DNA of 64,000 bases from an uncultured Lachnospiraceae bacterium (GCA_947626745.1 CANQTF010000009.1:1-64000); one strand, 5' to 3'; counted from the first letter of the stretch, positions 5,065-53,276 are shown. The notes: generated by a model from the letters alone, not told the origin. Program-made: numbers and translations.

Positions 5065-6553
5065 AACGCTGTGTCTTGGCATCGGCTCTCCTGCCGTTTC
5101 GCCGCACCGCCCACGCATCCTTCAACAATGCGATCCCTTCCCGGATCTGCTGCGCCGTAAGTCCTCCGTATCCCAAAATCAGCATCGCCGGCTCTCCCGT
5201 TGTCCGGCTTCCGTCGGCATTTCCGGACACGCCGTTTTCCGGGCCTCCCATTCTGAAATCACTCATTTTATAAACCTTCACATCGACCCCGGCCGCCAGG
5301 CTTACCAGTTCTTCCTCGCTGCGCCCGCACCTGTCCCGCAGGATCACATGCAGACCTGCGTTACTGCCGGATATCTCGAAGGTTTCTTCAAACTCCCTCA
5401 GCTCGTCAAGCAGCAGATCATGCTTTTCCCGATAGCGCTTGCGCATCTTATTCAGATACCGCTCAAAACAGCCGTCCCCGATAAACTCGTTCAGGATCGT
5501 CTGGTCTATCCTCGACACCGTGGAGGAATAGAAGCCGCACGCGCTCCTATACCGCGCAAGGAGCGGGTAAGGCAGCACCATATAGCTGACGCGGATCGCC
5601 GGGGCGATCGCCTTGGAGAACGTGCCGATATAGACCACTTTTCCCTCCGCGTCGGACGCCTGCAGCGACGGGAGCGGCTTTCCTTTGTAGCGGAACTCGC
5701 TGTCGTAATCGTCTTCGATCAGATAGCGGTCGGGCTTTTCCGCCGCCCATCTGAGCAACTCCATGCGTCTGCCGATCGGCATGGAAACACCCGTCGGATA
5801 CTGGTGCGACGGCATCACGTACGCCACCTGCGCGTCGGTCTTGCGCAGACAGTCCACGCGCATGCCGCTCTCGTCCATCGGCACAAGTAAGACCGGGTAG
5901 GCGCAGGACTGAAAGATCCGGTAGGCCCGCACATAGGTGGGATTCTCCATCGCCACGCGGATATGCCGCCCCAGTATTTTCTCCAGCAAAAGAAGCAGGT
6001 AATCGTTCCCTGCCCCCACAATGATCTGTTCCGGCTCGCAGTTTACGCCGCGCGACCCGTGCAGATAACGGCAGATCGTCGTGCGCAGCTGCAGATCGCC
6101 CTGCGGCTCGCCCAGAGAGAACATCTCGCTGTTGGCGTCAACGAGAATGCTCTTGGTGATCTTTTTCCATGTGGCATAGGGAAAATAACGCATGTCAATG
6201 GCATTGGGCGAGAAATCATAGCGCGCGGCGCGCCGCTCTTCACGGCCGTGCGTCTCAGCCGCCTCCCCCTTTGCCGGCGCGTCTATCACATACAGCTCTT
6301 CAAACGCGCTGACGAAATACCCCCTGCGCGGTCTGGCCTCCACATACCCTTCCGTCACGAGCTGGTCGTAGGCCATATCCACCGTTGTCCTCGACACCTG
6401 CAGATATTCCGCCAAAAAACGAGTCGAGGGCAGCTTCTCGTTTTGCAGAAGATGCCCTGACCTTATCTCGTTCCTGATATATTCATAGATCTGTTCATAC
6501 AGCGTTTTTGTGTTTTCCGGCTGCAGCCGGATATGGATCGGTAGCTCTTTCAT
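5063..6553 (-). CDS. MocR/PdxR-type regulator: GntR wHTH fused to an aminotransferase fold
   Basis: N-terminal GntR HTH (LPSTRFLAEYLQVSRTTVDMAYDQL) plus PLP site region (YIGTFSKAIAPAIRVSYMVLP). Confidence 0.9.
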   Translation of the reverse strand: MKELPIHIRLQPENTKTLYEQIYEYIRNEIRSGHLLQNEKLPSTRFLAEYLQVSRTTVDMAYDQLVTEGYVEARPRRGYFVSAFEELYVIDAPAKGEAAETHGREERRAARYDFSPNAIDMRYFPYATWKKITKSILVDANSEMFSLGEPQGDLQLRTTICRYLHGSRGVNCEPEQIIVGAGNDYLLLLLEKILGRHIRVAMENPTYVRAYRIFQSCAYPVLLVPMDESGMRVDCLRKTDAQVAYVMPSHQYPTGVSMPIGRRMELLRWAAEKPDRYLIEDDYDSEFRYKGKPLPSLQASDAEGKVVYIGTFSKAIAPAIRVSYMVLPYPLLARYRSACGFYSSTVSRIDQTILNEFIGDGCFERYLNKMRKRYREKHDLLLDELREFEETFEISGSNAGLHVILRDRCGRSEEELVSLAAGVDVKVYKMSDFRMGGPENGVSGNADGSRTTGEPAMLILGYGGLTAQQIREGIALLKDAWAVRRNGRRADAKTQR

Positions 6554-6571
6554 GGATTCCCCGACTGCCGC

Positions 6572-7456
6572 TTATTTCTTGGCGGCATTCTTCTCTTTGA
6601 TCTTCTGCATCAGCATATCCTTGATATCCCTCGCCTTATCCTTCATGCGCGGATTCGCCGTACTGGACTGCAGGATGCCTTGGATCAGACGGCTGGAAAG
6701 ATCGTACTGGTCAAAGCGCATCGCGGTGACGGCGATCACATAATCCACCGTCGGCTCATCCATGCCGCACATCGGGAAACTCTCGGTCTGTCTCGCAGCC
6801 AAAAATCCCTCCAGCGCATTCCGCAGGAACTCATTCTCTTCGTCCTCGCACTGCTTCTTCTGCGCCGCGTAATCCGGGAGATTCTTGTCAAGATGCTCCG
6901 CCTTGCCGCGCAAGAGCCATGCGGTCTTCAGGCAGATGTATGCCTTCTCGCTCGCCCGCGTCTGTTTTACGATCGCGTTCACGAGGGTCAGCTTATAACG
7001 CTCCAGCGCCTCGTCGTATGTATAGATCTCTTTCTCCTGCTTCTGCGGTTTGAAGGTCGAGGTGATCTTCTCCCTGATATTCTTCGCCTGCGGTGAAGTG
7101 ACGTACTTGAAGAAACGGCTCAGCGCCGCATAGCCGCAATCCGGACACATGATCACATCGTATTTCAGCAGATCGATCTGCTCATAGCGCGGCCTGAGAT
7201 CCAGATCGCTTCCCGCCAGCTTCGCTTTGCCGATCTTGACCGTCCTTGCCTTGAACTCTTTATCACAGATCGGACACGTAAATGATTTGTCAAAAAGGAA
7301 ATCCTGCTCCTGTACGACGGGTGCGGCCGCCTTGCCGCCTTCCGCTCCCTTATCCGCTTTCTTCTGGCTCTCATACAGATCCATATTCTCCAGATTGCCT
7401 AATCCAAACTGCTCTAATCCTGACAATAATCCTGCCATCGTGCTTCCTCCAATCAT
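6572..7456 (-). CDS. DUF2225 family protein
   Basis: Zn-ribbon-like CPICDKEF...CPDCGYAAL, DLDLRPRYEQIDLLKYDV. Confidence 0.8.
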   Translation of the reverse strand: MIGGSTMAGLLSGLEQFGLGNLENMDLYESQKKADKGAEGGKAAAPVVQEQDFLFDKSFTCPICDKEFKARTVKIGKAKLAGSDLDLRPRYEQIDLLKYDVIMCPDCGYAALSRFFKYVTSPQAKNIREKITSTFKPQKQEKEIYTYDEALERYKLTLVNAIVKQTRASEKAYICLKTAWLLRGKAEHLDKNLPDYAAQKKQCEDEENEFLRNALEGFLAARQTESFPMCGMDEPTVDYVIAVTAMRFDQYDLSSRLIQGILQSSTANPRMKDKARDIKDMLMQKIKEKNAAKK

Positions 7457-41863: not shown

Positions 41864-42571
41864 CTATCTTCCCATCCGCTGCAGCGTCTTTCTTCCCAGC
41901 GCATACTTGGAAAAAGACGACTGGATCAGATGATGATCCGTAACGATATGCTTGATATAAGAAGGCAGGATATGATCGAACTTGACCTCCAGCACATGCT
42001 CCCCTGCCTCTTGGATCGGATAGCAGAGATATCCGCCGTCCGTGAAACGGCCAAAATCATCGGAGACGGATATATTCTGATCCATCGTGATCCGTATGTT
42101 GGTGATCTTCTCCACATAGGCGCGCCTCTCAAAGTCGATCACCGCCGCGGGTGCAAGAAGCCCCGTCATACAGCGGACGCAGAACATCTGCAGGAGCGGC
42201 TCGTCCGTCCGCCAGAACACCTCCCCTGCACGGCCCGCCATGATCAGCGCCAGCTCTTCGGCCGTGATCGGGCAGCTCGTCTTGTGGCAGCGCCCCTCCG
42301 ATTTCTCCTTGCGTTCCAGACGCAGCCTGTCGCTGCGGTCATTGTAGTAGCGGACACGGTATTTCACCCGCTCCGACAGCCCCAGATCGTTTGCCCTGGC
42401 ACAGGCATTCGTATAGTCGTCAAAATAGAGGCTGCGGATACGGTATCTGCCGTCCGCGCCGCCGTATTCGTCCTTGTCCATGACCGCATCCAGTCTGCTG
42501 CCTATGATCTGCAGTTCGTTCAGGCTGCAGCAGTACTTCCACTCATTTCTGTATACTTTGATCTTCCTCAC
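41864..42571 (-). CDS. VTC-domain polyphosphate polymerase-like protein
   Basis: RNEWKYCCS...YRIRSLYFDDYTN, KYRVRYYNDRSDRLRLERKEKSEGRCHKTSC, VIDFERRAY, EVKFDHILP. Confidence 0.88.
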   Translation of the reverse strand: MRKIKVYRNEWKYCCSLNELQIIGSRLDAVMDKDEYGGADGRYRIRSLYFDDYTNACARANDLGLSERVKYRVRYYNDRSDRLRLERKEKSEGRCHKTSCPITAEELALIMAGRAGEVFWRTDEPLLQMFCVRCMTGLLAPAAVIDFERRAYVEKITNIRITMDQNISVSDDFGRFTDGGYLCYPIQEAGEHVLEVKFDHILPSYIKHIVTDHHLIQSSFSKYALGRKTLQRMGR

Positions 42572-44054
42572 CTCCGGCCGGAGCGGATGCGTCCGGTTTC
42601 AGCCACGGGCTGTAGGCGGCTTCCGGAACGGGCTGGGGCAGATAACGCGACCGCAGCTCGTTGGGGCGCGAGGAATAGACTTCCACCGCAAATCGGTAAG
42701 ACCCGCCCGAGTGTCCCCAGCTTGCCACGTCAAACCAGACGCCTCTGCCTATCTCCATGATCTCCGCCTTGCTCCATATGTTATTGCCGATACAGTTGCC
42801 GGCCTCATCGTAAAAGCTCACATTAAAGCGATCTTTGCTGTCGTAGTCGTCCATATTTTCCCACGCGGCACAGTACGACCCCCCCCCGCTTTTCCGGTCA
42901 TAAAGCACATCCCATTTCAGTCCGACAGGCTCCGGGATCACAGGCGCGTCCTCTCCGGTGTACACAAAAACATCGGAGACGACGTACGGGCTGTCCGCAT
43001 AGGCGACGCCGTCCCCTGCCGCCGACACGGTATAATAATAGCTGCCGTTCTCCCCGAACCCTTGCGCAAGGGCGACCGCATATTCGCCCTCCTCGTTGAC
43101 GGAAAAATTGCCCCACATATCGCCGTTCATGACGCACAGATCACTTTCCGGATCGGGCTCCTGTTCCGATTCGCACCTATAGAGCCTGTACCGGTAAGCC
43201 ATCTCACCGTTGACGCCGCTCTCCGGCACGACGCCCCACAGGGCGGTGCCCGTCTCCCCGTCCCAGTGCGGATCTTCCGGCGCCGGCAGCGCTGCCGGAA
43301 AGCCGTCGGCCACAGCAGACGCTTCTTCCCGCGGCATCCGCAGACTCCATGCCGCCGCACCGGCCAGACAGCACACGATTGCCGCGGCCGACAGGCATAA
43401 AAGCTGCGTCCTGACGCCGAACAGATCTCTTTTGACCGCTTTGACGGAATCGTACCGCTTATCGGGATCCAAGCTTGTGCATTTCCGAAGCGCCTTCCTG
43501 TAGCGCGGTCTGTCCGCCGCGCTTCCCATGAGCTGTCTGAGCGTGACGCCGAGCGCATAGATATCCGCCCTGCAGTCGGTCTGCGCAAAGCCGTATTGTT
43601 CCGGCGGCGCATACCCTCTCGTGCCGAGCAGACTGGTATCCTGCTCCAGATCGTCCTTCGGCATACGGGCCGCGTCAAAGTCGATCAGGCGGATATGGCC
43701 GTCCCCCGCCAGCAGGATATTGGACGGTTTGATGTCCCTGTGTATGATATTCTTCTCATGCAGAAACGCCAGCACATCGCACAACTCCCGCACGGCCCGC
43801 ATCAGCTTCCTGCCGGACAGATCGGCGCTCCCGATCGACACGCCCTCTATGTACTCTTCTATGACCGTTACGGAATCGGCCGTCTGATCCACCTCGTAGA
43901 TCTTAGGCAGATAAGGGTGCGGACAGTCGCGCAGGACTGTGAAGACCTCGTGTCTGCCTTTTAATATCTTCCTGATGTAAAGACCGTCGCTGCGCACCAG
44001 CTCTACCGTGCTCTTGCCGCTCTCTTTGATCCGTCTGACCACTTCGCAGTCCAT
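42543..44054 (-). CDS. Transmembrane Ser/Thr protein kinase with extracellular sensor domain
   Basis: HRDIKPSNILL, LIDFDAARM, GTRGYAPPEQYG; TM LLCLSAAAIVCCLAGAAAWSL. Confidence 0.9.
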   Translation of the reverse strand: MDCEVVRRIKESGKSTVELVRSDGLYIRKILKGRHEVFTVLRDCPHPYLPKIYEVDQTADSVTVIEEYIEGVSIGSADLSGRKLMRAVRELCDVLAFLHEKNIIHRDIKPSNILLAGDGHIRLIDFDAARMPKDDLEQDTSLLGTRGYAPPEQYGFAQTDCRADIYALGVTLRQLMGSAADRPRYRKALRKCTSLDPDKRYDSVKAVKRDLFGVRTQLLCLSAAAIVCCLAGAAAWSLRMPREEASAVADGFPAALPAPEDPHWDGETGTALWGVVPESGVNGEMAYRYRLYRCESEQEPDPESDLCVMNGDMWGNFSVNEEGEYAVALAQGFGENGSYYYTVSAAGDGVAYADSPYVVSDVFVYTGEDAPVIPEPVGLKWDVLYDRKSGGGSYCAAWENMDDYDSKDRFNVSFYDEAGNCIGNNIWSKAEIMEIGRGVWFDVASWGHSGGSYRFAVEVYSSRPNELRSRYLPQPVPEAAYSPWLKPDASAPAGGEEDQSIQK

Positions 44055-44105: not shown

Positions 44106-44134
44106 TTGCATAATAATGCCAGATAATGTATAAT
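44106..44134 (+). promoter_or_regulatory. Sigma-A-type promoter for the XRE gene
   Basis: TTGCAT - 17 bp - TATAAT. Confidence 0.65.
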
Positions 44135-44176
44135 CAACGATGTAAATATCCAAAGAATAAGAGAGAGACAATCGAC

Positions 44177-44617
44177 ATGGATAAAGTACAGAAACACAAG
44201 ACCACAGAAGAGTTGAACCACGAAATAAGCGCGGCGACCGACGTAGACGATTATCTGGAACGCAACAGAAACGATCTGCTGACGGGTACGCTGTCCGAGC
44301 ATCTGCGGGGACTTCTTGACCGCAAAGGCTTAAGCCGCGCAGATGTTGCACGCGGCTCTCAGCTTGACAGGACATATCTATATCAGATCTTTTCCGGCAA
44401 AAAGAATCCGTCACGGGACAAATTGATCGCCATCGCCTTCGGGCTTACGCTCACTGCCGAGGAAACCCAGCAGATGCTCAAGATATCCGGCTACAAAGAG
44501 TTGTATGCCAGAAACGAGCGGGACGCGCTGATCCTTTTTGCCCTGCACCACGGCGATACCCTGCTTAAGGCCAATGAATCGCTGTACGAGCATCATTGTG
44601 CCGTGCTGGGTAATTGA
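44177..44617 (+). CDS. XRE family transcriptional regulator
   Basis: LLDRKGLSRADVARGSQLDRTYLYQIFSGKKNPSRDKLIAIAFGL; start trimmed to MDKVQKHK. Confidence 0.85.
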   Translation: MDKVQKHKTTEELNHEISAATDVDDYLERNRNDLLTGTLSEHLRGLLDRKGLSRADVARGSQLDRTYLYQIFSGKKNPSRDKLIAIAFGLTLTAEETQQMLKISGYKELYARNERDALILFALHHGDTLLKANESLYEHHCAVLGN

Positions 44618-44623
44618 GCCGCC

Positions 44624-45013
44624 TTAAAAGATCACGATATTTTCTCCGCTGCGCAATGCCGCGCAGATTCTTTCCAGTCCTTTTTCGTTTTGCATAACCT
44701 GTATGACTTTGTCCGCCTGTTCTCCTGCGGAAATGACCCCCATGCCCAGAGAATCTTTCAGATCCGGGTTGTCCCTGATGACTTGCAGCATCCGGTCCTC
44801 TTCCTCCTGGCTCAGAGAGAGCAATTCCTTATCACAGAGCGCCTCGATCCTGCTCTCCGCAAACTGTTCGACCGTCTCCAACGCTCCCACAACGCTTCTC
44901 GGCATGTCTTTCATTTTTTTGGACCAATGCAGTTGTGCGCATGCCGCATTTGCTTTGACGCAGAGAACAACAGGCTCTATCGTCTTGTCATCTGCTACGG
45001 AATATACTTTCAT
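44624..45013 (-). CDS. Unknown protein, 129 aa, last gene of the dynamin/HerA operon
   Basis: ATGA overlap with the upstream gene; no family recognised. Confidence 0.7.
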   Translation of the reverse strand: MKVYSVADDKTIEPVVLCVKANAACAQLHWSKKMKDMPRSVVGALETVEQFAESRIEALCDKELLSLSQEEEDRMLQVIRDNPDLKDSLGMGVISAGEQADKVIQVMQNEKGLERICAALRSGENIVIF

Positions 45014-45927
45014 GATTCTGCTACCTCCTTTATGGCATCTTCCACGTCAGCTACGCTCTCATCCAAGGTGATCAATTTGGCATCGTATTTATCGCAGACA
45101 CTCTCCGCAAGCCCCGGCTGCACATCTTTGATATCCGAGGTCGTGAGCAATACTTTACTGCCTTCCTGCCCGGAAAGCTGATTCGGAATATGGCTGTTAA
45201 GCTGATCCTCCATGTATGCGGAGCCGCCGCACTTGCATTCCACCGAGATCGTCTCACCGGGCTGTACGGTTGTTCCCAGAGCCTCTATCGGCTGATCGGT
45301 ATCATTCTTTGCAATCACGTCGGGTCGTGTACCGCCGCTCTCGCCTTCAACAACTTTTTGTTTTGCCTCCACATTTAATCCGGCATCTGCCATGGCATCT
45401 TTGACAGCCGTTTCCAGCAGCTGTCCTTTCAGATTGCTTAACTTTGACTGTGCGCTCCGAATTTCAGTCGGTGAAGCATTCGGATCATTCAGTGTCTCCA
45501 ACGCCTCAAGCTGCTTCTTCCACAATTCGGCCTTTTCCGGATGCCGCTCTATCAGTTTACGGATACCTTCCGGCGTTCCCACCGATTCTTCGATTTCTTT
45601 CACAAGCGGGTCGGACTTGTCTAAATCCGCCCCTTTCAGCTTGTCTCCCCCATCGTCGATATCCGACAGGGCATCTATGATGTCTTCCCCGTCGTCGATA
45701 TCCGGCAGGGCGTCGAGGCCGTCTCCTTCTTCATCGATATCCGGCAGGGCATCGAGGCCGTCTCCTTCTTCATCAATATCCGGCAGGGCATCGAGGCCGT
45801 CTCCTTCTTCATCAATATCCGACACGTCATCCGGGCTGTCTTTTTCATCGTCGGTATCCGACACGTATACGTCCGGCTTGGGTTTCAATATATCCGAAAG
45901 GGAATCCCTAAAATTACCAAATGCCAT
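45010..45927 (-). CDS. Protein with acidic 13-aa tandem repeats and candidate PD-(D/E)XK-like C-terminal domain
   Basis: DIDEEGDGLDALP repeats; GTRPDVIAKN...ISVECKCGGSAYM. Confidence 0.65.
   Translation of the reverse strand: MAFGNFRDSLSDILKPKPDVYVSDTDDEKDSPDDVSDIDEEGDGLDALPDIDEEGDGLDALPDIDEEGDGLDALPDIDDGEDIIDALSDIDDGGDKLKGADLDKSDPLVKEIEESVGTPEGIRKLIERHPEKAELWKKQLEALETLNDPNASPTEIRSAQSKLSNLKGQLLETAVKDAMADAGLNVEAKQKVVEGESGGTRPDVIAKNDTDQPIEALGTTVQPGETISVECKCGGSAYMEDQLNSHIPNQLSGQEGSKVLLTTSDIKDVQPGLAESVCDKYDAKLITLDESVADVEDAIKEVAES
45658..45852 (-). repeat. 39-bp tandem repeat (about 4 good units plus 1 degenerate) encoding DIDEEGDGLDALP
   Basis: Units at 45658, 45697, 45736, 45775, 45814 in exact 39-bp register. 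Confidence 0.92.
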
Positions 45928-48900
45928 TACATCGGCCCCCTTCCTATAAATTTTTCATATCTTTCAACAAAAGAGTCCACATTCGGCTTGTCAGCAACAT
46001 ATTGCAAAATGAGCTGACGGATCCTCATAACCAGCTCGTTATTGTCAAGCTGCCACATTCGTTTGAGCTTTTCTTCCATTTTCTCGATTTCCTTGGAGGC
46101 ATCCTCTACGCCGTCCCTGAGGGCAATCGCCGCCGCTTTGCCCGCGAACAGATTGTATGCCACCTTTTGCATCTCCTTTTCGGTGAGCGGTTCTTTCCGC
46201 AGCACTTTCCGCAATATGTTCTGCGTATCGGGCGGATAAGGCAGTCCGGCGATCCAGTTGGCGATCCGATCTGCGGCTTCTTTCTCCATGCCTCTATTAT
46301 CGCGCATCTGAAACAAAATTTCAAAATATTCGTTGTACGCAATTTTCTCCGGGTCGGTCTTTTCCGCTGCCGCATCGGTCTGCGTCGCAGCGCCGTTCGC
46401 AGAAGGCGATGCGGATGCAGACGCAGGAGGCTCAGACGCAGGAGGCTTAGGCTCATACTTCTCAAATCTGCAAAGGACCGCTTCGACCCAGTCGTTCTGA
46501 TAGACTGCGGCCACTCCCCTCGGCAGCTTCGCCAGTTCTTCGATCTGATCCTCCCGCAGCGCTGCCGCTCTGCCGACCAGCTCCCTGTCCGCAGCATCGG
46601 GAAGTCTGAGGATTATCTTGGTGTTCGTGTTGCGGATCACAGCCTCGTCCAACAGCCCCGGCGCCTGATCGGCGATGATAAAGCCCTCGCCGTAGGTGCG
46701 CATCTCGGCAATGGAATTTGTCAGCATCTCCACCGATTTGCCCTGCAGATTCGCACTGTCCTGCGCCTGTCCGAACGACGTCCTTCTAAGCAGATTATGC
46801 GCCTCCTCCAGTACGGTCACATGTTGAAGATCCTCGTTGCTCACCGCCGATGAACTCATATGATACTCCTGCAGCTTCATGATCAGCACACCCATCAGCA
46901 GCGCCTTGGTTTCGACCGAACCCACTCTGCTGATATCCACTACGATGTTTTGCCGAAACATCTCCTCATCGGAAAGCTCGACGCCCGCACACAGCACTCT
47001 GCCGTTGATTCCGTTCGTCAGCGATTTGACACGCGTCACCAGCGCGCCGGCGTAATCGCTCTTGGTATCTTGGGAATATGCGGAACTGTTTACCACCTCC
47101 GGCAGTGCAATCAAAAGATCCTTAAAAGTCGGGAAGGCATCCGACAAATCGCACCGGCACCGGCTCGACACAAGATCCCAGCCCTTCTCGATATACGTCT
47201 TTTCTATGGCGTCCTTTAAGACGGCGGGCATAGCGGCGTACATCGGCCAGCACGCATTCAGGATCTCCGTCAACCGGTCAATGTGCTCCAAAACATGTAT
47301 GGGTCTATCCACACCTTCTCCCGTCGGAAAAGTAAACGGATTTATGCTGAGCAGTTCCATATCCGGCATATTGGGGTTTGTCCCGTAAACCTTATCGCAG
47401 ACGCCTTTGAGCGCATCTTTATACTCGCCCTTGGCTGGCTCAATGACCATAAAGTTTTTCTGCTTATCATGCAGTTCCGTCACGATCCGGTAAACGGTAT
47501 TTGACTTTCCTGTACCCGTAGAGCCCGTGACAAAGACATGGGACGCAAGGCTGTTCACGTCAAGCGATACCTTTTTGTTCTCGACCTGATACATATGTAC
47601 GACTTTTCCGATCTCCAGGAAATCCGCAGGATCGCCGTCCGGAGCATCCGCGCCATCCGTCTCGATCACGGAAAACCTGTGCGTTTCTCTTCCAAACGCC
47701 GCGCTGTTGATCACCGGAAATCCCGCAACGGATTTTCTGGGAAAATTCAGAGCCCGCACCAATTCTTTGCCGGAGATCAGCGTAAACAGATCCACTTCCG
47801 GGGGCAGCATGGAATAGTCCTCGTATTGCTCGCACTTCTCCTTGTCAAGGACAAATGCGGGATGCAGGATCCGTTTAAGATTTTCCAAAATAACCGCGGC
47901 TTCCTTTTGCTGATTTGTCCCATGCCAAAAATTGAGCACGGCACGGGACAGATAGGACTCCTCCCCCTGCGTCAACGCAAGATACATACGGGCCACATCT
48001 TTCGCGACAGCCGGAGCCTCCGATACCGCATAGGCTGCGAATCTCCACATCCCGAGGGCCGAGCACTGTTCCAGCCTTTTCATCTGGCTCTCCAGCAATT
48101 CCAGACTGTGCTTGACGGCATAATTCGTGATTGTTTTGTTCTTTCCCTGAATCTCCCCTACCGTCTCATTTCGGTTTACCGTTTTCCCAAAATTAAGGCC
48201 AAAATTTATGCCGGCATTTACGCCGAAATTCACACCGACATTCATTCCGACGCTTACGCCTGCATTTATGCCTATGCTCTTCGCCAGCGAACTGCCGCTG
48301 CCAAGAGTCGTGCTCTTGTTTACGGAAACCGACTCCTGCCATTCCGCATACGGAGACAGCGCATTATACATAGCAAACAGGAGATCCTTTTGCGTCTCCA
48401 CCTCCGCATCGCTTACCGGGCTGGCCAACAGGATCAGTCTATATTCTTCGTCCTTTTCCGGCACTATGCCGTCCAACAGCTTCTCCATGCTCTGACTGAT
48501 AAAATCCTCGGATTTATCCGTCGCAAGATTTGTCACGGCCGCCACGGAATACGCTTTCCTAACCTGGCAATTATCATTGTATCGGACGGTACCTTTCATG
48601 CAGTCTGGTACGCCCCACTTTTTCTTTTCTGTTATCTCTGCCCCCGGGAAATTGCCCCGTATTGCCCGCTGCAGCCTATCGCTGTATCCCGTCACAATAG
48701 CCCGATTCGATTTATCTCCTGTATTTACAACCGCCATGGTAACCTTGCACCCGTCTTGTTTTCTGTCATAGATCAGCGCAATATTACAGTTCTCCCCCGA
48801 TAAGGTCTGATATACGTTGATCAGCTTCTCTATATTCTTCTCTTCCGTATCGGTGACCCAGCGCGTAATGTCAAAGGATACGATCCTCGATGCCGCATCA

Positions 48901-49223
48901 AACTTAGAGGGATCAAAGGCGCATATCGGCTCATAGGCTTCGCCCACATACGGCAGATGCGCATTGTACAGCTTGATGCCCAAAGCGCCCAAAGCCCGTT
49001 GCGTCGATGTGTTCTCTTCGTCCTGATCCTCCTGAATAATAGAAAAGTAATCTTTTCTTGCTTCTTCGATCTCCTTCCTGAGTTTTTCCCCTTTCTCAGC
49101 CCGAGCGGCAAGATAACTTTTTTCCTTCTCCTGTATAGCGTTGTCAGCTTTTTGGGCAAACTGTACCGCCGCATCTTTAGCGCCCTGCCCCATCTCTTTG
49201 ACGCCCTGTACCATTTTCTTCAT
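45927..49223 (-). CDS. HerA/FtsK-like (DUF87-type) ATPase with N-terminal coiled coil and Gly-rich 4-residue repeat
   Basis: Walker A VTGSTGTGKSNT, Walker B VTVLEEAHNLLRR; SIGINAGVSVGMNVGVNFGVNAGINFGLNFG. Confidence 0.88.
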   Translation of the reverse strand: MKKMVQGVKEMGQGAKDAAVQFAQKADNAIQEKEKSYLAARAEKGEKLRKEIEEARKDYFSIIQEDQDEENTSTQRALGALGIKLYNAHLPYVGEAYEPICAFDPSKFDAASRIVSFDITRWVTDTEEKNIEKLINVYQTLSGENCNIALIYDRKQDGCKVTMAVVNTGDKSNRAIVTGYSDRLQRAIRGNFPGAEITEKKKWGVPDCMKGTVRYNDNCQVRKAYSVAAVTNLATDKSEDFISQSMEKLLDGIVPEKDEEYRLILLASPVSDAEVETQKDLLFAMYNALSPYAEWQESVSVNKSTTLGSGSSLAKSIGINAGVSVGMNVGVNFGVNAGINFGLNFGKTVNRNETVGEIQGKNKTITNYAVKHSLELLESQMKRLEQCSALGMWRFAAYAVSEAPAVAKDVARMYLALTQGEESYLSRAVLNFWHGTNQQKEAAVILENLKRILHPAFVLDKEKCEQYEDYSMLPPEVDLFTLISGKELVRALNFPRKSVAGFPVINSAAFGRETHRFSVIETDGADAPDGDPADFLEIGKVVHMYQVENKKVSLDVNSLASHVFVTGSTGTGKSNTVYRIVTELHDKQKNFMVIEPAKGEYKDALKGVCDKVYGTNPNMPDMELLSINPFTFPTGEGVDRPIHVLEHIDRLTEILNACWPMYAAMPAVLKDAIEKTYIEKGWDLVSSRCRCDLSDAFPTFKDLLIALPEVVNSSAYSQDTKSDYAGALVTRVKSLTNGINGRVLCAGVELSDEEMFRQNIVVDISRVGSVETKALLMGVLIMKLQEYHMSSSAVSNEDLQHVTVLEEAHNLLRRTSFGQAQDSANLQGKSVEMLTNSIAEMRTYGEGFIIADQAPGLLDEAVIRNTNTKIILRLPDAADRELVGRAAALREDQIEELAKLPRGVAAVYQNDWVEAVLCRFEKYEPKPPASEPPASASASPSANGAATQTDAAAEKTDPEKIAYNEYFEILFQMRDNRGMEKEAADRIANWIAGLPYPPDTQNILRKVLRKEPLTEKEMQKVAYNLFAGKAAAIALRDGVEDASKEIEKMEEKLKRMWQLDNNELVMRIRQLILQYVADKPNVDSFVERYEKFIGRGPM

Positions 49224-49248
49224 ATCATTCTTCCCTTCCGAGATCAAT

Positions 49249-49599
49249 TCATCTTTCGTTCACCAGAAACACTAAGACAGCCACGAGCGCTATCGCAATC
49301 ACGATCCCTGCCGCAATCACCAGCCATTTTGGCACGCCCTTATGCACCTCATCGCTGACCTCCGCCATATACAGATAGAATTCCCTGGATCCTGCGCCTC
49401 TTACACTGAGCGCTCTCAGTTCCTCGAGATACTCCATGCTCCACGGCTTGGGTTTTCTCGTCACAACATAGCTGTTAAAGCAATCTTCTCCATACTGCTT
49501 TGCGATCCTGTCCAATTCCCTTTCCACTTCAGGTCTGTGGATCTCCCCGTTTACGATCCTCGAGACCAACCTGATCTGCTCCTCCACTGCTCCCATCAT
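49249..49599 (-). CDS. Small tail-anchored membrane protein, 116 aa
   Basis: C-terminal TM WLVIAAGIVIAIALVAVLVFLV ending in NER; 4-nt overlap with dynamin gene. Confidence 0.75.
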   Translation of the reverse strand: MMGAVEEQIRLVSRIVNGEIHRPEVERELDRIAKQYGEDCFNSYVVTRKPKPWSMEYLEELRALSVRGAGSREFYLYMAEVSDEVHKGVPKWLVIAAGIVIAIALVAVLVFLVNER

Positions 49600-51971
49600 C
49601 TCTGTCCCTCCGTGCTTCTTTTTTGAAACGCTATCTGCTGTTCGATCTTTCTTTTCTCTTCTTCAATCTGACTGATCTGCGCATTTTTTGTATCGATCTC
49701 TTTCTCATACTTCGCGAGCTGATCGGCTATTTCTTTCAACTCAGGATTGAAGGAAATGATATTATTTTGCAGTTTTCCTATGACGGCAGCCGTCATCGCT
49801 TCAAAATTTTGCTCATTCATCGTTGTTGCATCATGATTATTTTTGAAAATGTTCTCCTCAAGAGTACTCCGATATTGCCTGATCCATGCGCCTTTGTCTT
49901 CCCGCACTTTTTGCTTCTTCTCCGCCCACTGTTTCCGCCCCAAGGCCCTAAAGATCTTACCGACCAAAGAATCTGTTTTTCCCAATGCGAGCCGGAACAC
50001 ATCATGACGATTCGGCACCTTCGCCGTTTCCATCAGATTATCCGCCAGGAGCTTTTTCTGATCCTTTGTCAGCGCATCGCTGTCATACACAATTTTCAGG
50101 AGCTTGTCCTTCAGGTCTTGCGTACACTCTGCCCAATATTTTTCTGTGGATTCGGTTGCTTCCTTGGCATAATTTGTGATATCCTCTTGATATGCTTTAG
50201 TCAGCTCGCTTAGAAACCATTCCTGATTATCGACATCTATTTTCCCTCCACATTTTTTTTGAGCCTCGTCTATGCTTCCCCTGATCCGCGATTCTTCCGT
50301 ATACTTCTTTACTATGAGGTCTATTGCCCCATTCGCAAACTCTGTGGTATACTTAGCGTATCTTTCCTTGCACGTCTCCTTCAGCTTGCTTATCAATTCC
50401 TTTTTCTTATCGTCCAGCCATGTTTGATGAGTTCGGCGGAGATTTTCACTTACTTCTTTGGCAATTTCTATTTTCTTTTCTGCTTGTTCCGCCGCTTTCG
50501 TCAGATACCCGATCGCATTCAGGCACTTGTTGTATAACGCATATTTCTTTGCGAAGCCGCCTATATCCTGCGCGACACACGGTATCCCGCTGTTCCACAG
50601 AAGCGAGGCATCGCCGTCTTTCGCACGGCCCTCCAGCTCCTCTTTTTCGTCCTCCGGAAGGATATTGTAGGTAGGCAGATCTAGGTAAAAGTCGTCGTCT
50701 TTATCTTTGAATTTATTCTCGTGATCTTTGTAAGTAGCATAATATTGCTGATCGAACCAGCTCGTGCGCTCTAAGGGGCGCTCCTTCTTGCCGCCCAGCC
50801 CTATAATGGAGGAGACAAAGTATACGCGGGCCGGTCTGTAGTTTAGCTGCCGCTGTTCCTCTCTTTTTGCAACAATCGTTTGCAAAGCAGACGGAATCTT
50901 GTCATCGCATCGATTGACAACGATCAGCATATTGGAGAGATCCAGTTTCCCATCCAACTCGTCAAGAATTTCATCGAGTTCCGTCTGCGCCGCCTTATCC
51001 AGGCTATCCGGTTTCGCCACAATGATCGGCAGTCCGTTTGTCTGTTCTTCCATGGCTTCCCGCAGGACTTCCAGATGCTCCTTGTGCCCCGCCGAATCCG
51101 ACCCCGGCGTATCATAGATAACAAAGTCATAATCCTTCGGCAGATCCGACGCGTCAAAAGGAACGTGAATCTCAATCATATCAGCCAGTTTCTCCCGATT
51201 CTCCTTATGATTGCCGAATTCATTCAGTGCAGCGAGCGTCCAGTACATCGCCCCGCTCTCCGTCTCAGGTTTTTTCTCCTCCAGCTTATTCTGTATCAGC
51301 TTTATGATCTCACTGACGGAACGCGGCGTGACCTTCGGCACAGACCCGTCGAAGGTCAGTGTATACTCTTGGTTCTGAACGCTAAAGCGGATCGAAGATT
51401 CCGCTGACGCCCTTATCTTATAGATTCTTGCCGTTTCAGGATTGTCAGCGCTCGGCAGTATCTCCCGCCCGATGAGGCTGTTGATAAAGGCGGACTTGCC
51501 GGAGCTGTACAACCCCATAACGCACAAAACGATCTCCTCTTTGACCGTTTCCTGATACTTGTTGATAACGCTTTCCATCTCAGGATCCGGATAGTCCTTG
51601 AAATATTCCTCCAACACGTTGAATGACCTCTCTATCTGCTTTATGACATCTTTGGCACATTTTATTTCCCGTTCTCCATGGGCAAGCTTGATATTATCCT
51701 CAGGGAAAAAAGTGGTCAGAACCGTTTTTAAGGCGCGATAGTCGTCCTCCGTGCCTTCAAAGGAAAGGCACATGCCTTCTTCTTCGTTGTAAAAGCATTC
51801 CTTAATACAATCGAATATCTTGTATGCTATGTGTGAGACAGGCCATTTTTTGGCTTCATCCACACCAAAAAAGGTGTCACCTATACCCACGTCCTCTTTA
51901 CTGCCGTTTCCAATCCAGAAATATTGATTTTCCTTGTGATACGGGTCGCTCTGCATTACCATTTCTTCCAT
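49596..51971 (-). CDS. Dynamin-like GTPase
   Basis: P-loop GLYSSGKSAFINSLIG, G3 DTPGSDSAG, G4 VNRCDD; C-terminal coiled coil. Confidence 0.87.
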   Translation of the reverse strand: MEEMVMQSDPYHKENQYFWIGNGSKEDVGIGDTFFGVDEAKKWPVSHIAYKIFDCIKECFYNEEEGMCLSFEGTEDDYRALKTVLTTFFPEDNIKLAHGEREIKCAKDVIKQIERSFNVLEEYFKDYPDPEMESVINKYQETVKEEIVLCVMGLYSSGKSAFINSLIGREILPSADNPETARIYKIRASAESSIRFSVQNQEYTLTFDGSVPKVTPRSVSEIIKLIQNKLEEKKPETESGAMYWTLAALNEFGNHKENREKLADMIEIHVPFDASDLPKDYDFVIYDTPGSDSAGHKEHLEVLREAMEEQTNGLPIIVAKPDSLDKAAQTELDEILDELDGKLDLSNMLIVVNRCDDKIPSALQTIVAKREEQRQLNYRPARVYFVSSIIGLGGKKERPLERTSWFDQQYYATYKDHENKFKDKDDDFYLDLPTYNILPEDEKEELEGRAKDGDASLLWNSGIPCVAQDIGGFAKKYALYNKCLNAIGYLTKAAEQAEKKIEIAKEVSENLRRTHQTWLDDKKKELISKLKETCKERYAKYTTEFANGAIDLIVKKYTEESRIRGSIDEAQKKCGGKIDVDNQEWFLSELTKAYQEDITNYAKEATESTEKYWAECTQDLKDKLLKIVYDSDALTKDQKKLLADNLMETAKVPNRHDVFRLALGKTDSLVGKIFRALGRKQWAEKKQKVREDKGAWIRQYRSTLEENIFKNNHDATTMNEQNFEAMTAAVIGKLQNNIISFNPELKEIADQLAKYEKEIDTKNAQISQIEEEKRKIEQQIAFQKRSTEGQR

Positions 51972-52229: not shown

Positions 52230-53276
52230 ATGAAAAGATTTGACTACTCTTTTTTGGATAACGGGATGCTTCCGGCCGGTCTTGTGAATCTGACTGCGAA
52301 TATTGCGGCGCTCAAAACCATGGCGGGCGTCCGGAAAGAGGCATACGCACAGATCTTTACAGAGCTGGAGGCGGTCGCCAAGGTGCAATCCGTCAAAAGC
52401 TCCAACGCCATTGAGGGGATCGTCACCAGCGACGAGCGTATCGCCGCCATTGTCAATCAGAACAGCGCGCCCCTAAACCACAATGAGGCAGAGATCGCCG
52501 GATATAGGGATGCGCTGAATGCCATCCACTTGGGCTTTGACCATATCGACTTTACACAGCAAAATATTCTCCGTCTGCATGAGATAATGATGTCCATTGC
52601 CGGTTATGAATACGGCGGACAGTACAAGACGGACAACAACGTGATTTTGGAAGTGGACGCAGACGGCAATCGCCGCGTGCGCTTCCGTCCGACTTCCGCC
52701 GCAGAGACCCCGAAAGCAATGGAACAGTTGGAGCTGGCCTATCTTGCGGCACGGGACGACGCGAATATCAATCAGCTTCTGCTGATCCCCTGCGTGATTT
52801 TGGATTTCCTCTGCATCCACCCGTTCCGGGACGGCAACGGCAGAATGTCCCGTCTGCTTTCCCTGCTGCTCCTTTATAAAAACGGGTATGACGCCGGAAA
52901 ATATGTGTCCTTTGAGGAACAGATCAACAACTATAAAGCCTATTACTATGAGGCTCTGCGGCAGTCCTCCGCCGGGTGGGACACGAATGAAAACAGCTAT
53001 TTCCCCTTTATAGAAAATTTCCTCTCCACGCTCTATATGTGTTATAAGGAGTTGGATAAACGGTTTGCCGTGGTCAACGGAAAGAAAATCACGAAAAAAG
53101 CGCGTGTGGAAGCCACGGTGTTGAATAGCCTGACGCCTCTTTCCAAAGCGGAGATATGCAAGATCCTCCCGGATGTCAGTCCGACTACCGTGGAGGCCGT
53201 GCTGGGCGCAATGGTCAAAAGCGGTTCCGTTCAGCACATTGGCAGCGGAAGATCTACAAGATATATGAAAAAGTAA
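52230..53276 (+). CDS. Fic/DOC family protein (class II-type with N-terminal inhibitory motif)
   Basis: HPFRDGNGRMSR catalytic motif; SSNAIEG inhibitory-helix motif. Confidence 0.93.
   Translation: MKRFDYSFLDNGMLPAGLVNLTANIAALKTMAGVRKEAYAQIFTELEAVAKVQSVKSSNAIEGIVTSDERIAAIVNQNSAPLNHNEAEIAGYRDALNAIHLGFDHIDFTQQNILRLHEIMMSIAGYEYGGQYKTDNNVILEVDADGNRRVRFRPTSAAETPKAMEQLELAYLAARDDANINQLLLIPCVILDFLCIHPFRDGNGRMSRLLSLLLLYKNGYDAGKYVSFEEQINNYKAYYYEALRQSSAGWDTNENSYFPFIENFLSTLYMCYKELDKRFAVVNGKKITKKARVEATVLNSLTPLSKAEICKILPDVSPTTVEAVLGAMVKSGSVQHIGSGRSTRYMKK

Follow-up and report, generated by a model that had tools for sequence, protein, structure and literature searches.

Polymorphic toxins are normally classed by the route along which they travel, and ATPases of the HerA type are known from HerA-nuclease and HerA-SIR2 complexes, antiphage systems with known structures that were recovered here as PDB matches. 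The locus described here lies in a 64,000-nucleotide stretch of DNA from an uncultured Lachnospiraceae bacterium (GCA_947626745.1, CANQTF010000009.1:1-64000), hereafter the window, which comes from a draft genome that is 84% complete and consists of 49 contigs. It is a five-gene operon that encodes, in this order, a dynamin-like GTPase, a tail-anchored protein of 116 amino acids (aa), a HerA/VirB4-type ATPase, a 305-aa protein and a 129-aa protein. The operon probably represents a polymorphic toxin system served by a dedicated dynamin-HerA machine, and the leading reading for its effector is export. It belongs to a large cross-phylum set of loci whose constant part is the dynamin GTPase and the HerA/VirB4-like motor. 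The initial annotation, made from the sequence of the window, had rightly recognised no named system; the open-access literature, to which the search was confined at the exclusion of subscription papers and preprints, yielded no description of the arrangement, and its novelty is thus unproven.

A recurring GTPase-ATPase arrangement

Relatives of the HerA protein were sought in 84,980 species genomes, where at least 500 were found and the best 80 were kept. With 11 loci from a search of the family and that of the window, and after removal of three redundant ones, the survey comprises 89 non-redundant loci; it samples the closest relatives, and many of these come from metagenome-assembled genomes (MAGs). 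The closest named relatives are mostly from Lachnospiraceae and other Clostridia. Relatives are present in 12 of 150 genomes of the family and in 13 of 60 congeners; identity reaches at least 45% in four of the latter, not counting that of the window. The architecture recurs in Bacillota, Actinomycetota and Spirochaetota, in one Prevotella MAG and on an E. coli plasmid, and the arrangement is widespread in gut and oral bacteria.

A dynamin gene is located at most three genes upstream of HerA in 71 of the 89 loci, and the spacing between genes is tight across loci (median gaps of 14, -4, and -4 nt). The initial annotation had made its proposal hinge on the co-occurrence of these genes in other genomes, and dynamin and HerA turned out to co-occur very widely. 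Eight further loci (L016, L018, L035, L036, L037, L039, L041, and L043) have small GTPases that replace dynamin, and most of them encode the dynamin N-domain as a separate gene; thus L016, L018, L036, L039, L041, and L043 have a stand-alone N-domain protein of approximately 270-560 aa and two small septin/AIG1-like GTPases. The more distant HerA relatives of L022, L023, L025, and L026 are accompanied by zinc-ribbon proteins, Hsp70-like proteins or other ATPases and by no GTPase, but L025 and L026 nonetheless have toxin-immunity pairs of the same families nearby.

Plasmids carry the system in Lactococcus, E. coli, Treponema, Ruminococcus, and Exiguobacterium. The annotated copies (Lactococcus cremoris, Treponema, E. 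coli, and Exiguobacterium) present, after the ATP-binding protein, an HNH-type nuclease and then a small protein, which belongs to the SMI1/KNR4 family in three of the four, and dynamin family proteins are found just upstream in the first three of these hosts. The E. coli plasmid pTW10590_133 (L117), a conjugative IncI plasmid, harbors a complete two-dynamin version, the sole copy in 5,426 complete E. coli genomes. Carriage by phages was rejected as a general explanation, as only four close relatives were found among 2.9 million viral contigs.

Swappable toxins with cognate immunity proteins

The first gene after HerA (+1) encodes the toxin. Among 80 such proteins, Pfam matches were to Endonuclea_NS_2 (24), Colicin-DNase (24), WHH (24), LHH (4), HNH (3), Ntox15 (2), and a metallopeptidase family (2), counts that overlap because one protein may match several families. 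The next gene (+2) gave matches to YezG (19), DUF6985 (15), SMI1_KNR4/SUKH (12), PoNi (3), and Tdi1 (2) among 76 proteins. Except for DUF6985, all these are established families of interbacterial toxins or immunity proteins, according to the Pfam descriptions and the parts of the survey of polymorphic toxins used here (Zhang et al., 2012; PMC3482391). When the last 105 residues of the toxins and the +2 proteins were clustered independently, the toxin and immunity classes paired nearly one to one (22/23, 7/7, 4/4, 3/3, 2/2, and 2/2). Apparent absences of the immunity gene in seven loci were artefacts of the picking of open reading frames (ORFs), and only L051 is still without one.

Many +1 proteins carry, within their first 50-130 residues, one of three types of short motif, NFKNIKPE, FDPDKRID or LPDEIG, hereafter the tag. 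Such motifs, which were chosen after inspection, are present in 42 of 86 +1 proteins and in 7 of 1,295 other proteins. On a HerA tree that was built quickly and has some long branches, the tag types need 2 changes, as few as three types allow, compared with 14 for the toxin class on the same rows. In a comparison of toxins of different classes that required no definition of motifs, N-terminal similarity climbed with HerA identity, from z 0.8 to 19 (Mantel test, 0/300). A recent swap is apparent between L069 and L074, the HerA proteins of which are 94.5% identical: their toxins share 85% identity over the first 40 residues and only 17% over the last 100, and the immunity protein has switched from a YezG-like protein to one of another family. 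At the level of sequence, the tag co-varies with the ATPase, and the toxic C-terminus is exchanged along with the immunity gene.

When 20 whole genomes were searched with a profile of the most frequent tag, it matched the +1 gene in all 20 and, in seven of them, also an HExxH metallopeptidase encoded two genes further on (+3); it revealed no convincing tagged protein outside the operons of these genomes. In these genomes the tag is confined to the +1 and +3 genes, and therefore the machine has one or two tagged effectors to serve, both encoded next to it. The metallopeptidase is a second tagged effector, which follows the nuclease pair in some 12 loci and has a conserved partner of about 98 aa; in L088, the two pairs are in reversed order.

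Across the family, then, the N-terminus is conserved, while the C-terminal toxin domains, among which that of the window is not counted, are diverse and recombine, and the cognate immunity gene is directly downstream and changes with the toxin. On these sequence grounds, the family is very likely one of polymorphic toxins. A DNA-handling or envelope-stress machine, as the initial annotation had considered, is not supported. The genes downstream of HerA are those of a swappable polymorphic toxin and of its immunity protein. Antiviral defense, another option of that annotation, is a rival reading. The membrane-linked operon of GTPase, HerA and nuclease that it had also proposed is real and recurring, except that the 305-aa protein of the window is only a candidate nuclease.

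The presumed toxin-immunity pair of the window

The pair of the window was assigned to the system by its position and its tag alone. The gene for the 305-aa protein contains a 39-bp repeat in 5.3 copies (Tandem Repeats Finder), which encodes ALPDIDEEGDGLD, a repeat close to the LPDEIG tag, and the HerA protein of the window falls in a clade of LPDEIG-tagged loci (SH-aLRT 98). The pair very probably belongs to the polymorphic toxin family. The 129-aa protein, which had been left as an unknown protein with no suspicion of an immunity role, is presumed to be the immunity protein by its position only.

The last 156 residues of the 305-aa protein have no relative in 295 genomes of the order, 399 genomes of the phylum, plasmids or viral contigs. 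Missing relatives are compatible with a rare toxin tip, as can happen. The PD-(D/E)XK label given earlier was not confirmed: the motif (KGxLLE ... RPD ... VECKC) was recognized by eye only, and these residues make such an identity possible. A profile comparison with two groups of REase-like (nuclease-like) toxins gave nothing, and the single-sequence AlphaFold model of the protein is poor (pLDDT 50). PDB sequence matches, all to designed repeat proteins or antibodies, were judged spurious.

The putative machine

The operon of the window comprises five ORFs, all on the minus strand, that overlap or nearly abut, in agreement with the initial annotation, which had placed them at the same positions (Table 1). 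The ATGA overlaps at the dynamin/116-aa and 305-aa/129-aa junctions, the TAATG at the HerA/305-aa junction, and the gap of 25 nt between the stop codon of the 116-aa gene and the likely ATG of HerA at 49223 were likewise found; the HerA ORF as listed starts at an in-frame TTG upstream of that ATG, at 49247. The motifs reported earlier are intact as well, with the P-loop, G3 and G4 of the dynamin reading GLYSSGKS, DTPG, and NRCD, and Walker A and B of HerA reading GSTGTGKS and VLEEAH. The hydrophobic tail anchor noticed in the 116-aa protein corresponds to a single C-terminal segment (residues ~93-111, mean hydropathy 3.25), and about ten other loci encode a similar C-terminally anchored small protein directly upstream of HerA.

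The dynamin of the window passes the Pfam Dynamin_N model (64.1 bits for a cut-off of 27). It consists of a family-specific N-domain (residues ~1-140, with an NPY-type motif) followed by the Dynamin_N GTPase, with no transmembrane segment; such segments are lacking in nearly all HerA and dynamin proteins of the surveyed loci. The profile of the dynamin family matches the bacterial dynamin-like protein 2j68 at 2.4e-12, and mitofusins as well.

The HerA protein passes Pfam DUF87 (45 bits for a cut-off of 23.2) and is organized in an N-terminal domain, a Gly/Asn-rich loop (~48138-48326), an ATPase domain (~46458-47630), and a C-terminal helical region. Its AlphaFold model is good (pLDDT 79), and its best Foldseek matches were to archaeal HerA (4d2i; E 3e-14, ~410 columns) and to full-length TrwK/VirB4 of R388 (E ~1e-13, 938-1021 columns). 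The ATPase domain reached TM-scores of up to 0.75 with VirB4 (4ag5), but whole-chain TM-scores are low, which makes the resemblance of the N-terminal domain to VirB4 a lead and not a proof. PF03135, the family of the VirB4 N-domain, matched none of the HerA relatives. All 45 members of the HerA family matched NCBIfam NF033849 (ser_rich_anae_1), a 'serine-rich protein' model, below its cut-off, and this uncharacterised family may represent a sister toxin-system ATPase.

Export or intracellular defense

As the comparison of loci shows, the conserved parts are a GTPase module, either dynamin or the split N-domain with two small GTPases, and the HerA/VirB4-type ATPase, followed by one or sometimes two short tagged effectors, each with a partner gene. 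The ATPase may read the tag and move or hand over the effector, and the dynamin, together with the tail-anchored protein where present, may bring the complex to the membrane. In the likeliest scenario, the effector would be exported and would kill neighbors that do not have the immunity protein. Toxins that are swappable and come with dedicated immunity proteins suggest use against relatives and hence export, which also fits the VirB4-like motor. Export of the toxin to neighbors is the leading reading, with about an even chance of being correct. That the arrangement represents a previously undescribed mode of toxin delivery, mainly of Gram-positive bacteria, in which toxins with a short N-terminal tag are exported by a HerA/VirB4-type ATPase together with dynamin or paired small GTPases and without a known secretion channel, is a tentative proposal, somewhat less likely than export as such. 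The type VII secretion system is not required, since its EssC component scores above the cut-off in only three of ten system-bearing genomes, and below it in the 84% complete genome of the window.

Several observations weigh against the proposed toxin system and its export. The operon encodes no channel, pilus, signal peptide or known export domain, and Pfam detected no N-terminal domain indicative of a known secretion route, including LXG/WXG, among the 80 +1 toxins. Cargo genes are restricted to the operon, and arrays of orphan immunity genes were not encountered; either feature is unusual for antibacterial secretion systems. The 305-aa and 129-aa proteins of the window have no match in Pfam, NCBIfam, PADLOC or PHROGs. 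The +1 effectors are almost all nucleases, and regulators of the WYL type and some flanking defense genes fit phage defense.

The strongest rival is an intracellular system directed against phages or plasmids, in which the membrane GTPase and HerA would sense invasion and recruit the tagged nuclease via its N-terminus; once freed from the neutralising +2 protein, the nuclease would cut the invading DNA or the cell would die. Besides the near-exclusive use of nucleases and the presence of tagged cargo only in cis, this explanation draws on the HerA antiphage complexes mentioned above, on the WYL-type regulators, found in 14 of the 89 loci, mostly upstream and on the same strand, and on strong PADLOC matches among 121 flanking genes, for which there is no background set (BrxHI, DrmA/DrmD, type II methyltransferases, Csn2, and candidate systems). 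In contrast, YezG, SUKH, PoNi, and Tdi1 are families of interbacterial competition, models of HerA, LeoBC and other defense systems match weakly or far below their cut-offs, and a structural match to full-length VirB4 is unexpected for a HerA that acts on DNA only. HerA defense partners are not known to carry swappable toxin tips with immunity proteins of these four families. Intracellular defense is less likely than export. Least probable by far is a competition or addiction module of mobile elements that poisons cells losing or lacking the immunity gene with no dedicated export: the plasmid copies listed above favor it, as does the accessory nature of the operon in the genus of the window, deduced from the adjacent regulator-kinase pair being kept in congeners without the operon, but a toxin and an antitoxin suffice for stability, which leaves a conserved GTPase-ATPase machine of 5-6 kb and the tag unexplained.

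Whether toxin export or intracellular defense holds, the outcome would be a new job for bacterial dynamins. In the former case, common bacteria of the gut, rumen and mouth use a secretion route that has gone unrecognised; in the latter, cassettes of toxin and immunity genes have been co-opted by an immune machine inside the cell, which they provide with exchangeable warheads. The arrangement also makes it possible to interpret at least 500 HerA relatives and their many uncatalogued toxin-immunity pairs.

Features of the operon and neighboring genes

Table 1. Coordinates of the operon features (window positions, except for the last row, which refers to locus L017).
Feature	Position	Strand	Basis
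Dynamin-like GTPase, 791 aa, first operon gene	49596..51971	-	Pfam Dynamin_N 2.1e-17
116-aa tail-anchored protein with C-terminal transmembrane segment; candidate membrane adaptor	49249..49599	-	Hydropathy; similar proteins elsewhere
HerA/VirB4-type ATPase	45927..49247	-	Pfam DUF87, AlphaFold, Foldseek
305-aa protein in toxin (+1) position; N-terminal acidic repeats resembling LPDEIG-type tag	45010..45927	-	Position, repeats
Tag-repeat region of 305-aa protein	45656..45863	-	Tandem Repeats Finder
Presumed toxin domain, C-terminal 156 aa of 305-aa protein; residues resembling PD-(D/E)XK by eye only	45010..45480	-	No homologue in the genomes, plasmids and viral contigs searched; AlphaFold pLDDT 50
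129-aa protein in immunity (+2) position	44624..45013	-	Position and ATGA coupling
Second effector and its partner in L017; also L073, L099, and others at +3/+4	6207-6875 and 5920-6210		

Outside the toxin operon, the window encodes a Ser/Thr kinase (42543-44054) and a divergent helix-turn-helix regulator (44126-44617). This pair is conserved in congeners, and 19 of 60 genomes have the kinase. Immediately upstream of the dynamin is the gene for a divergent Fic-domain protein (SoFic-like; 52230-53276). The weak Fic-like neighbor also present in L017 is probably coincidental.

Comparison with known systems

Like classical polymorphic toxins, the effectors described here combine a constant N-terminal part with a swappable C-terminal toxin domain, with an adjacent cognate immunity gene, and the toxin and immunity families are the same in the parts of the survey used here (Zhang et al., 2012; PMC3482391). 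In contrast to them, the N-terminus is a short tag with no domain of the type II, V, VI or VII secretion systems or of PVC (T2/T5/T6/T7/PVC), and the mode, in which each locus has its own dynamin/GTPase and HerA machine, is absent from the passages used here and the trafficking table of that survey. Type VII secretion with LXG toxins shares the Gram-positive setting, a motor of the FtsK/HerA superfamily, and YezG-type immunity to nuclease toxins; the present system differs by the lack of LXG/WXG domains in its +1 toxins, by the small proportion of its hosts with a passing EssC, and by its GTPase module.

HerA-nuclease and HerA-SIR2 antiphage complexes similarly have an ATPase of the HerA superfamily next to an effector that is often a nuclease, whereas the ATPase described here has a large extra N-terminal domain, a GTPase partner, and a swappable toxin with its immunity gene; the HerA of the window scored 57.5 bits with the HerA_antiphage models of NCBIfam, for a cut-off of 800. 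With VirB4/TrwK of type IV secretion, the likeness is in the predicted fold of HerA, which aligns over its whole length as indicated above, but VirB4 models score far below cut-off, and no gene set similar to that of a type IV secretion system was seen in the operon. Finally, the dynamin GTPase domain is shared with BDLP, as reflected by the profile match to 2j68, and with LeoA of Eleos; among the Eleos (LeoA/LeoBC) models, LeoBC reached no better than E 0.015, over residues 478-773 only. The dynamin of the present system differs from those of BDLP and Eleos by its family-specific N-domain, and it can be replaced by a stand-alone N-domain protein together with small GTPases.

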